A stretch of 20,236 nt of DNA from a virus. The stretch is from positions 1 through 20,236 of IMG/VR virus record IMGVR_UViG_3300017757_000223. One strand, given 5' to 3'. Below, piece by piece: positions 12,220 to 14,688 of this stretch; within the stretch, counting starts at the first letter, position 1; every line of letters starts with the position of its first letter. The position numbers and the translations under genes are program-made. The notes beneath the pieces are model-generated. The model ran no database searches. It was not told the origin of the DNA and saw only the letters and a program-made list of their open reading frames with translations.

Positions 12220-13731
12220 TTAACTCGGTACTGAAGTGCTTTTTGCATCAACGCCCATTGAGTAACTAATTGCATTTGCTGTACTATAAGGAGCGTCTCC
12301 TATTATATTTTCATCTGCACCCATTCCATCACTTAAACCATTCCCAGACGTACCAACACCGTTTACTATTGCGCTTTCTGCTGGTGATAAATTTTGACCT
12401 GTTGCGTTGTTAGTTCCTTTCTCATCTAGTATAGTCCATACATTAGAATCATAACTCATATTCTCCCCTAACTGATACCAAGTGACTAAATTTGAATAAG
12501 CTGAAAATGAATTTAGATTTGAGGGTTTACCTTGATTATAAATTTCTGTAACTTGTGCTTGTGATAATCCAGTATTAAACACTGATGCGTTTGAAAGAGA
12601 GCCTTTAAACTCAAAATCAGCAGGAGCGTCACCTTGAGCTCCTATAAATATTTTGTTAGTTGGTGTTTCTATTGGAGTTGTATATGTATTAGTATTTGTT
12701 TCTTTAACACCGTTGATATATAAAAACATATTTAATCCATCAGCAACTCCCACAACGTGAGTCCAAGTGTTGTCAGTAAGTGCAGTGCTTTGTTGTACTG
12801 TATTGTAGCCAGTGTCTCCTATTCTCCAAGTAATTTTATTACTATAAAGTGCTAAATCCCAGCAAACTCCAAAATTTCCACTACTGACACCAGTATTTCT
12901 AACACCAAAAACACCAGCAGCAGTTAGTTGACTACCATCTCTTTTAACCCAAATAGAAAGACTAACAGTGTTTAATTGTGCTGGTACACTATCAGAAGTA
13001 GCATAATCCGAAACTCCATCGAAATTTAAGGCATACCTTGAGTAAATATTCTCATCAGCTAAATTCGGCACTAAATAATCTGTACCGTTAAACGCTGCAT
13101 AATCACCAATTGGATAAAACGCTTTAGGCTTTGCACTTAAACTCATTGGATTACCAACTCCATTAGTTGAGTTACCATATAAAGATGTTATTTGTGAAGC
13201 TGAAAGTGCATAATCAAAGATTGAAACGTGGTCTATTTTGCCGTTAAATTCTCTACCAGCTCCAAATTGATTATCTCCTATTGTTAAATCATTAGTATTA
13301 GCGTTTAAAGTGTATGTTCCTCCTAAATCAGTATTAAAACTTGAACCATTTTTATACACAATTAAATCTGTTCCATCACAAGTAATAACACAATGAATCC
13401 AAGTATCAGTAGTGTTAAAGAAATTTGAAGTATTTACTTGAGTACCACCGCCTGATATATTAGGGTTGAATTTTAATGTCTGATTGTTTTGAAGTACTAC
13501 AAACCCTCTTGTTCCGCTATCAGCACATAAAATACCTTTATCACCTCCTGTACTATTAGAGCTGTTTTTAATCCATAAACTAATACTGTATACTGATTGA
13601 TTAAATATATCGCTATAAGGAATGACTATTCTTTCAGAACTCCCGTCAAAGCTCATACTGTAATTAGATACTTTATTTGAGTTGCTGCTTTTAGGCATCC
13701 TCCAGTTTCTATTGTAAAATTCTGTACTCAT
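12220..13731 (-). CDS. Fibre or surface protein with two LamG domains
   Basis: This 503-residue protein contains two Concanavalin A-like/LamG domains. Domain 1 spans about residues 25-185 (YSMSFDGSSERIVI ... FNGKIDHVSIFDYALSASQI). Domain 2 spans about 232-400 (YALNFDGVSDYATS ... FKGSLSNASVFNTGLSQAQV). Each has the family's SISLWIK and WTHVV/WIHCV strands and a YINGV/YKNGS hairpin. A Gly/Asn/Ser-rich tail (about 425-503) follows. LamG domains often bind polysaccharide, so it may contact the capsule or exopolysaccharide of the host. It starts directly after the stop of the other LamG gene, in the place of tail-fibre genes. No enzymatic motif is seen. Confidence 0.82.
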   Translation of the reverse strand: MSTEFYNRNWRMPKSSNSNKVSNYSMSFDGSSERIVIPYSDIFNQSVYSISLWIKNSSNSTGGDKGILCADSGTRGFVVLQNNQTLKFNPNISGGGTQVNTSNFFNTTDTWIHCVITCDGTDLIVYKNGSSFNTDLGGTYTLNANTNDLTIGDNQFGAGREFNGKIDHVSIFDYALSASQITSLYGNSTNGVGNPMSLSAKPKAFYPIGDYAAFNGTDYLVPNLADENIYSRYALNFDGVSDYATSDSVPAQLNTVSLSIWVKRDGSQLTAAGVFGVRNTGVSSGNFGVCWDLALYSNKITWRIGDTGYNTVQQSTALTDNTWTHVVGVADGLNMFLYINGVKETNTNTYTTPIETPTNKIFIGAQGDAPADFEFKGSLSNASVFNTGLSQAQVTEIYNQGKPSNLNSFSAYSNLVTWYQLGENMSYDSNVWTILDEKGTNNATGQNLSPAESAIVNGVGTSGNGLSDGMGADENIIGDAPYSTANAISYSMGVDAKSTSVPS

Positions 13732-14688
13732 TTACTCTCCCATTTTATACCAAGCTACTAGATTACTAGAGCTTGCATTAGTTAAACTTGTTAAATCATT
13801 TGGTGCTCCACTGTTGTAAATCTCTGTAATTGCTGCGCTGCTCAAAGCTGAATCCCAAATAGAAACCTCATCAATCAAGCCATTAAATAAAGCAGCAATT
13901 GCGCCTGCTTTTCTTCCAATATTTAAATCATCACTTGAAGAGCCAAAGCTCCCGCTTGTACCAGATAAAGTAGGTTCTAATACTCCATTTATATAAAGTT
14001 TTGGAGCAACACTATCATTATTGTAAGTAAAAATTACGTTATACCAACTTCCTGTATTTATTGTAGTAGTAGATTTACTTGCATATTGAGTTGTTCCTAC
14101 TCTATACCAAGCCTCTATTTTATCACTTGAAGACGAAAAAGCTATCCCATAACCAATTGTAGCTCCTCCTGAATTATTCCCCTTTTGTATTATTCTTTCA
14201 TAAGTTGCAGCAGTGGTTGCTTTAAACCATAAAGAAACACTAATTGTTGAATGTGAATTTGTGTTGCCAGCATCAAAATAGTCATTCACCCCATCAAAAG
14301 AAAACGAAGAAGTTGAAGCATAAGGCGCACTTACCACAGATAAATTAAAAGTTGAACTAACACCACCAACTGTATAGGTTACAACGTGTGCTGCAATAGT
14401 AGAAGCACTCAAATCAATTTCACCAGTTGAAGTACTAACAAATACTAATCCACTTGTGCCGCTAAATGTGCCTCCAGTAGTTCCAGTAATAGTTGGTGTT
14501 GGATTTGAGTCAGCTTGTGTAAATGAAGCCGCTGAATAACTAAAAGCAGCACTTGTTCCAATTAAAGCAGTATCACCACTATGACTATTTTCATATATAG
14601 AACCAGCACCAATGTTATTAGTTGCTAATTTACCAAAACCATTAGTGTTGTTAATTACTCCTTGTCCCCATCCATTTGTAACTGCCAT
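13732..14688 (-). CDS. Fibre or surface protein with one LamG domain
   Basis: This 318-residue protein has an N-terminal region with a low-complexity start (NGWGQGVINNTNGFGKL) and an Ig-like stretch (about 45-120; FSYSAASF, PTPTITGTTGGTFSGTSGL, GEIDLSASTIAAHVVTYTV). A LamG domain follows at about 128-295 (SFSFDGVNDYFD ... FNGLIDEVSIWDSALSSAAI). It ends at NLVAWYKMGE, exactly where the second LamG domain of the next gene continues into its tail, so the two are modular relatives. The N terminus probably attaches to the virion and the LamG domain faces the host. It begins 10 bases after the DUF6712-like gene. Confidence 0.82.
   Translation of the reverse strand: MAVTNGWGQGVINNTNGFGKLATNNIGAGSIYENSHSGDTALIGTSAAFSYSAASFTQADSNPTPTITGTTGGTFSGTSGLVFVSTSTGEIDLSASTIAAHVVTYTVGGVSSTFNLSVVSAPYASTSSFSFDGVNDYFDAGNTNSHSTISVSLWFKATTAATYERIIQKGNNSGGATIGYGIAFSSSSDKIEAWYRVGTTQYASKSTTTINTGSWYNVIFTYNNDSVAPKLYINGVLEPTLSGTSGSFGSSSDDLNIGRKAGAIAALFNGLIDEVSIWDSALSSAAITEIYNSGAPNDLTSLTNASSSNLVAWYKMGE

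Follow-up and report, generated by a model that had tools for sequence, protein, structure and literature searches.

How three LamG modules came to be spread over two adjoining genes is the question raised by positions 12220-14688 of IMGVR_UViG_3300017757_000223, a virus record of 20,236 bases which was analysed at its full length and is called here the window. To judge from its sequence, the record belongs probably to an uncultured phage of marine Bacteroidota. The locus and the neighbouring genes discussed all lie on the minus strand, in the order portal, DUF6712, gene 1, gene 2, 80-aa gene, amidase (aa, amino acids; Table 1). An earlier note on this DNA, which gave no strand, had described two abutting genes carrying one and two LamG domains, and this is confirmed by PF13385, found once in gene 1 and in two stretches in gene 2. 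The explanation favoured here, with moderate confidence, is that the two genes encode a predicted two-subunit, glycan-binding virion appendage, diversified by the exchange of LamG cores within fixed frames.

Slots and cores of the LamG modules

Relatives were collected by two scans of viral contigs (20 + 53 loci), and the architecture table contains 51 rows. A total of 170 modules were cut by using a dedicated profile, and the 146 which could be assigned to a clear slot were analysed; the remainder, among them the modules of long middle genes, were left out. The pattern used for slot assignment gave the first gene of L068 the label gene 2.

The three LamG modules of the window are 30-32% identical to each other, while their best relatives are found in other phages: L004 gene 1 (72%), the first module of L037 gene 2 (75%) and the last module of L004 gene 2 (65%). 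No long DNA repeat was found in 12220-14688, the longest repeat family being 28 nucleotides (nt) at 68-75%. For both reasons, the modules are not regarded as recent duplicates.

When the nearest neighbour in another phage was determined separately for each part of the modules, its slot was the same for 140 of the 146 tails, 115 of the heads and 85 of the cores, about 30 being expected by chance. Where two modules of one slot have tails at least 90% identical (112 pairs), core identity has a median of 26%, close to the background (median 0.22 across 14,060 cross-phage pairs), which indicates that the socket was kept and the core replaced. Module ends are therefore slot-specific, and what is replaced is a core of about 145 aa. 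Comparison of single relatives with the window gives the same picture: in L021 the portal and the gene 1 tail are both 95% identical and core 1 only 36% (aa). L037 shares core 2 (72% aa) and has a portal only 23% identical; L004 shares cores 1 and 3 (82% and 74% aa), and in its record portal and terminase found no match, a weak negative in so far as one of the searches included no record known to match its query. The linker of gene 2 is 68-71% identical (aa) in L003, L010, L015, L033 and L037, and 43% in L004.

Core transplants and breakpoints

Core pairs at 0.55 identity or above number 35 and are set apart from the background peak; 30 were kept after dropping the near-copy loci L005, L038 and L045. 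Tails are less than 60% identical in 14 of these 30 pairs, and at most 41% identical in 12 of the 14. The two modules carry different slot labels in 9 of the 14 transplant pairs. Three of the nine are between clear slots: L011 gene 2 first and L019 gene 1 (core 86%, tail 17%), L007 gene 2 first and L053 gene 1 (86% and 24%), and L068 gene 2 first and L012 gene 2 last (61% and 23%).

In 10 of the 14 pairs the shared segment begins at profile columns 4-7 (full range 0-14), shortly before the FDG motif (columns 8-10), and in 11 of the 14 it ends at columns 141-165, around the NGxID motif (columns 147-151 approximately). DNA alignments, available for six cross-slot pairs, begin at codons 3-14 and stop at codons 143-172 of the module. 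Core replacement, transplantation and the region of the breakpoints are shown by these comparisons.

Architecture of the locus in relatives

The start of gene 2 (MSTEFYNRNWRMP and kin) and its C-terminal tail (C-tail; ...STSVPS and kin) are both widespread among relatives, where the first gene starts in one of several ways (MAVTNGWGQ, MGVIYNRNRKK, MPxIFNPKK, MSDFGKIYES, MSYLGIGS or MFPFPFSF). The number of LamG modules varies throughout the 51 rows: split loci have 1+2, 1+3 or 1+4 modules, three-gene loci 1+6+4, 1+6+3 or 1+1+4, and single genes 1 or 2. Single fused genes start with MAVTNGWGQ in 9 of 10 distinct cases, and in 10 of 10 close on a (V/I/T)P-type end like that of gene 2; some of the single-gene rows are near copies (L056, L059 and L060; L031 and L032). 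Portals closely similar to that of the window are found with different forms, a single fused gene in L064 (portal 85% identical) and a 1+3 architecture in L033 (95%). The three-gene versions at L065:2282-10406 and L068:2192-10238 have 11 and 10 LamG modules.

In the relative G021 the locus is present at both contig ends, once with one LamG (340 aa) and once with two (at least 571 aa). The 32 nt which follow the 80-aa gene are identical in the two versions, up to the contig limit, while the three cores are 24-29% identical among themselves. Edge repeats were detected in the two-module version, 90 and 100 nt long with 76-79% identity, together with a 42-nt repeat at 90%. Both split and fused forms are hence documented, as is the occurrence of two versions at opposite ends of a single contig. 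The contig of another relative, G011, has ends (L074:1-1090 and the last part of L075) which coincide over 1090 bases with 95% identity; this record seems therefore to close on itself, with strain variation.

The junction between the two genes

Gene 2 starts on the base after the stop of gene 1, as had been noticed earlier: the TAA occupies 13734-13732 and the ATG begins at 13731, so that the gap is 0 nt, and the two genes share the same frame. It also holds that gene 1 stops at the LamG exit strand WYKMGE, where the last module of gene 2 continues as WYQLGENMSYDSN: gene 1 ends with ...SSNLVAWYKMGE and a stop, the second LamG of gene 2 with ...YSNLVTWYQLGE, followed by NMSYDSNVW.

Among relatives with an FYNRN-type gene 2 (18 rows measured), the gap is 0 or -1 nt in 15 and 4-6 nt in L013, L014 and L022; in other split relatives it is 4-32 nt. 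Close abutment is conserved, exact spacing is not. The junction DNA at 13729-13752 (TGGTATAAAATGGGAGAGTAAATG) is almost invariant among FYNRN-type relatives, except for L013, L014 and L022. It resembles a Shine-Dalgarno site, with GGAG 5 nt ahead of the gene 2 ATG, and the other genes of the window phage have mostly A/T-rich leaders. All 18 genes compared encode the junction glycine as GGA, a codon used in 3 of 11 at the corresponding internal site. Translational coupling through a Shine-Dalgarno site was nevertheless set aside, because the genes compared are related sequences, the site is missing from L013, L014 and L022, and DUF6712 codons are conserved too (90th percentile of synonymous identity, 0.91).

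Backbone and cassette

Identity of each part was compared with DUF6712 identity by Mantel tests, on 35 loci for the N-terminal head of gene 1 (N-head) and the Ig-like domain, 36 for core and tail and 24 for the 80-aa protein. The N-head tracks the backbone (rho 0.82, p 0.001). No clear tracking was found for core (rho 0.06, p 0.11), tail (0.04, p 0.18) or 80-aa protein (0.09, p 0.13). Since its type follows the phage backbone, the N-head is probably the virion anchor.

All 24 split operons counted have an 80-aa protein 64-90% identical to that of the window, and all 12 single-gene operons have one at 35-44%. The window is not counted here, 12 other rows of the 51 have no 80-aa match, and L005 (near copy, 70%) and L012 (gene 1 out of view, 85%) were left out, although both agree. 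The type of 80-aa protein follows the split or fused architecture, not the backbone. The protein, which has no family match in Pfam, PHROG or other profile searches, is possibly an assembly partner.

Domain family and predicted structure

Matches to PF13385 (Laminin_G_3) are far above chance level: residues 132-287 of gene 1 reach E 8.3e-26 and 91.4 bits, the two stretches of gene 2 E 3.2e-41 and 141.4 bits, with a gathering cut-off of 27.6 bits. Both proteins (12223-14688) also match the NCBIfam TafC fimbrial protein over LamG (E 1e-16, 9e-11), far below cut-off. In PHROG, gene 2 matches phrog_8510, a virion structural protein of the head and packaging category (E 7.1e-29, LamG region only), and the sole match of gene 1 is phrog_347, a tail terminator family (E 3.6e-5).

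In the AlphaFold2 model of gene 1, residues 1-42 are disordered and are followed by a small beta domain and by the LamG jelly roll, with its last strand at 310-314. The label Ig-like for aa 43-122 is our assumption from the sequence pattern, with no database match. The last strand lies inside LVAWYKMGE, so that gene 1 seems to finish with the strand which closes its LamG. Two LamG-like regions are seen in the AlphaFold2 model of gene 2, where the C-tail is unmodelled. Foldseek retrieved PTX3, CBM40, neurexin LNS and laminin LG with probability 1.00, all pointing to a concanavalin-like jelly-roll; as modelled, the LamG fold is pentraxin/LNS/CBM40-like.

Proposed mechanism

Genes 1 and 2 would encode two subunits of one appendage, which may be a tail, neck or head fibre. 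The N-terminal anchor, specific to the backbone, would come from gene 1, as would the Ig-like spacer and the first LamG; all further LamG modules and the C-tail would belong to gene 2. The ends of each LamG slot are conserved and specific to it. Between them, the core of about 145 residues is exchanged, by recombination with other phages in the scheme proposed here, and transplanted cores extend mostly from FDG, or just before it, to NGxID or slightly beyond. The cassette formed by the two genes, together with the downstream 80-aa partner, would also travel between phages; such movement would place fused (1 or 2 LamG) and split (1+2, 1+3, 1+4, more) forms on closely related backbones. Fold and variability suggest that the LamG modules bind glycans or receptors, and core exchange would alter specificity, leaving assembly undisturbed. 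Such viruses may in this way change their binding targets.

Exchange at short homology would presumably be carried out by a phage RecE-type or a host recombination system. Profile searches of the window and 7 relatives, records which are maybe incomplete, found neither reverse transcriptase PF00078 (0 of 8 records; control positive in 3 of 14) nor serine recombinase PF00239 (0 of 8; control positive in 10 of 14). On these grounds a diversity-generating retroelement and an invertible tail-fibre switch of the Mu/P1 type were rejected.

Several observations weigh against core exchange in fixed frames, or narrow it. Cores favour their own slot well beyond the 30 expected, and cross-slot exchange is accordingly limited. 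Over half of the shared-core pairs (16 of 30) also share the tail (60% identity or above); only 3 of the 9 different-slot pairs are between clear slots, the others involving modules of long or cut-off genes, and the 14 transplant pairs are partly dependent, L016 and L033 sharing one core. Some segment ends lie off the seams (full range 113-195), and selection for folded proteins, instead of the sites of recombination, could explain where the breakpoints fall. The Ig-like domain tracks the backbone weakly (rho 0.14) but with p 0.015, and the N-head of L016 is 85% identical to those of L035 and L040 despite distant DUF6712 proteins. L004, L065, L068 and L070 end otherwise than with the common C-tail. 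The loci at the ends of G021 could stem from variants within one population, or from two close phages joined during assembly. The gene 2 model is weak (mean pLDDT, predicted local distance difference test, 63), and the phrog_412 exonuclease was found in 5 of the 8 records (window and 4 of 7 relatives).

Alternative explanations

Recent duplication inside the window phage, by which LamG 1, 2 and 3 would be mutual copies, is very improbable. All three modules belong to PF13385, the WYKMGE and WYQLGE ends match, and in L068 neighbouring modules have 50% core identity, which is likely due to internal duplication; against this stand the low mutual identity of the window modules compared with 65-75% to other phages, the lack of a long DNA repeat in the locus, and core identities of at most 45% in other same-locus pairs. 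The hypothesis was rejected, being mostly refuted. Of the 'modular duplication and reshuffling' put forward in the earlier note, the reshuffling is borne out by cores exchanged among genes, slots and different backbones, and duplication within the phage is not. The condition which that note set for its own refutation, modules nearer to separate outside families than to each other, applies in part: the nearest modules are in other phages and not in the same locus, yet all are PF13385 domains. Very little credit is likewise given to one fibre gene broken by a stop or read through to an 822-residue fusion, the split being a mutation or a sequencing error. It is true that the two frames agree in the window and that relatives have fused single genes; however, the split is common to many relatives, gene 2 has its own start motif, and split and fused operons have different types of 80-aa gene. 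Above all, spacing shifts the frame among relatives (-1, 0, 4, 6, 9-12, 22, 24, 32 nt), for which reason the hypothesis was rejected.

A nearly even chance is given to passive mosaicism only, with breaks occurring anywhere, selection keeping the joins at domain edges and no feature of the cassette promoting exchange. It concerns the mechanism alone and is compatible with the two-subunit appendage favoured here. Domain mosaicism is general in receptor-binding proteins, according to the accessible part of PMC10684548, the seams coincide with conserved fold motifs, and neither PF00078 nor PF00239 was found in the eight records. Conserved seam DNA, and the 90-100 nt edge repeats of one version, would on the other hand ease homologous exchange, a point which is not decisive. 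Less probable, though still to be taken seriously, is a head or neck decoration binding environmental polysaccharide or the cell surface, the tail tip binding the receptor. The place of the genes, between DUF6712 and the lysis genes, is separate from that of the tail-type genes (found in the terminase-capsid interval in G011 and G021), and gene 2 matches the head and packaging family phrog_8510 by its LamG region; against a decoration, gp10 of phage P12024S, at the matching place, is annotated as similar to a tail fibre, the only PHROG match of gene 1 is to a tail terminator family, and the high variability is consistent with host-range selection.

For the favoured explanation, likely receptor-binding parts are traded at sub-domain scale: the sockets stay and the lectin cores travel, while module number and gene number differ between near relatives. 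If cores set specificity, the binding repertoire of a phage would be readable from its cores, and host sharing would be traceable by core exchange. A broader, rather unlikely extension is a lectin repertoire, comparable by analogy to antigenic variation, in which a pool of LamG cores would be common to unrelated phages of one host community, FDG and NGxID would be preferred points of phage-driven annealing recombination, and populations would always hold several core sets and module numbers.

Features of the window

The features of the locus are reported in Table 1. Outside it, 3634-4284 encodes a short C-5 cytosine methylase-like protein, whose match to PF00145 (E 7.7e-9) covers no more than positions 1-80 of 324.

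Table 1. Location of the features discussed, with the evidence for each; coordinates refer to the window.
Feature	Coordinates	Strand	Evidence
Gene 1, 318 aa: N-head, Ig-like domain, single LamG	13732..14688	(-)	Open reading frame; PF13385; AlphaFold2 pLDDT 78.5
Gene 2, 503 aa: conserved head, LamG, linker, LamG, C-tail	12220..13731	(-)	Open reading frame; PF13385 in two stretches
Gene 1 N-head (aa 1-42), disordered in model	14563..14688	(-)	pLDDT <50
Gene 1 Ig-like domain (aa 43-122)	14323..14562	(-)	Beta strands in model
LamG core 1 (gene 1 aa 129-283), exchangeable	13840..14304	(-)	
Exit strand LVAWYKMGE at gene 1 end	13735..13761	(-)	Predicted strand 310-314
Junction box TGGTATAAAATGGGAGAGTAA/ATG: gene 1 end, stop, gene 2 start	13729..13752	(-)	Near-invariant DNA in FYNRN-type relatives
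Gene 2 head MSTEFYNRNWRMP..., common to different phage backbones	13672..13731	(-)	
LamG core 2 (gene 2 aa 30-178)	13198..13644	(-)	
Slot-specific linker (gene 2 aa 190-228)	13048..13164	(-)	
LamG core 3 (gene 2 aa 238-392)	12556..13020	(-)	
Exit strand LVTWYQLGE, last LamG module	12463..12489	(-)	Predicted strand 415-419
C-tail (...DAKSTSVPS) closing the last LamG gene	12223..12462	(-)	Low model confidence
80-aa gene downstream of gene 2	11956..12198	(-)	
DUF6712 protein, putatively connector-like by position; backbone marker	14699..15199	(-)	PF20459 E 1.7e-21
Portal protein; backbone marker	15196..16974	(-)	phrog_33693 E 1.7e-79; 31% to Nonlabens phage P12024S
RecE-like exonuclease, candidate recombination protein	7509..8237	(-)	phrog_412 exonuclease VIII E 7.8e-42; PF12684 E 1.1e-29

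Comparison with known systems

The window phage resembles P12024S and P12024L, Nonlabens/Persicivirga phages of the genus Inhavirus, in the gene order around portal-DUF6712-fibre-small gene-lysis, the terminase and the tail-type genes; the portal and terminase are homologous to those of P12024S (31% and 52% aa identity). It differs in the fibre genes, since gp09 and gp10 of P12024S, at the matching place, have no BLAST match to gene 1 or 2 (E 1e-4), and the annotation of gp10 says only that it resembles a putative tail fibre. G011 and G021, relatives of about 31 kb, contain homologues of P12024S gp38-gp49 between the terminase and capsid genes, which are taken as tail genes; these are missing from the window probably because it is a fragment. 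From the kinship with P12024S we infer a marine Bacteroidota member as the host; a host search in genome contigs gave 46 pattern matches, none of which was confirmed. In a phage sequence collection, gene 1 had no match at E 1e-5, gene 2 matched only three records (25-32%), and no isolate carrying the cassette was found.

The gp38 protein of T-even phages is reportedly an adhesin, as Tetart and colleagues are said to have described in 1998. In the accessible part of PMC12529663, gp38 is a single small protein varying in four short segments between glycine-rich motifs. The likeness lies in variable segments swapped between conserved motifs, and concerns the mode of variation, not family membership: genes 1 and 2 have no match to the gp38 family in Pfam or PHROG at E up to 0.1. 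The window phage and its relatives differ in swapping LamG cores of about 145 aa, the slots numbering 1-11 and being spread over one, two or three genes.

Recent sharing of fragments between otherwise unrelated receptor-binding proteins of phages is described in the accessible part of Smug et al. 2023 (PMC10684548), and the LamG cores are alike in this respect. The main text of that work, as far as accessible, does not mention LamG, laminin or concanavalin; compared with it, the exchange of LamG is here resolved to slots and seams, to split and fused forms and to a partner gene which varies with them. In BFVD, uncultured marine viruses have LamG-like proteins, many of them nameless, which are alike in fold, with 14-33% identity in the best 50 matches, the comparison being by names and scores only. 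LamG, laminin and lectin do not occur in the texts of PMC8776804 and PMC11267871, and a LamG cassette with a slot-and-core layout over split or fused genes was not found in the open-access literature searched. The principle is known, from T-even gp38 and from domain mosaicism.
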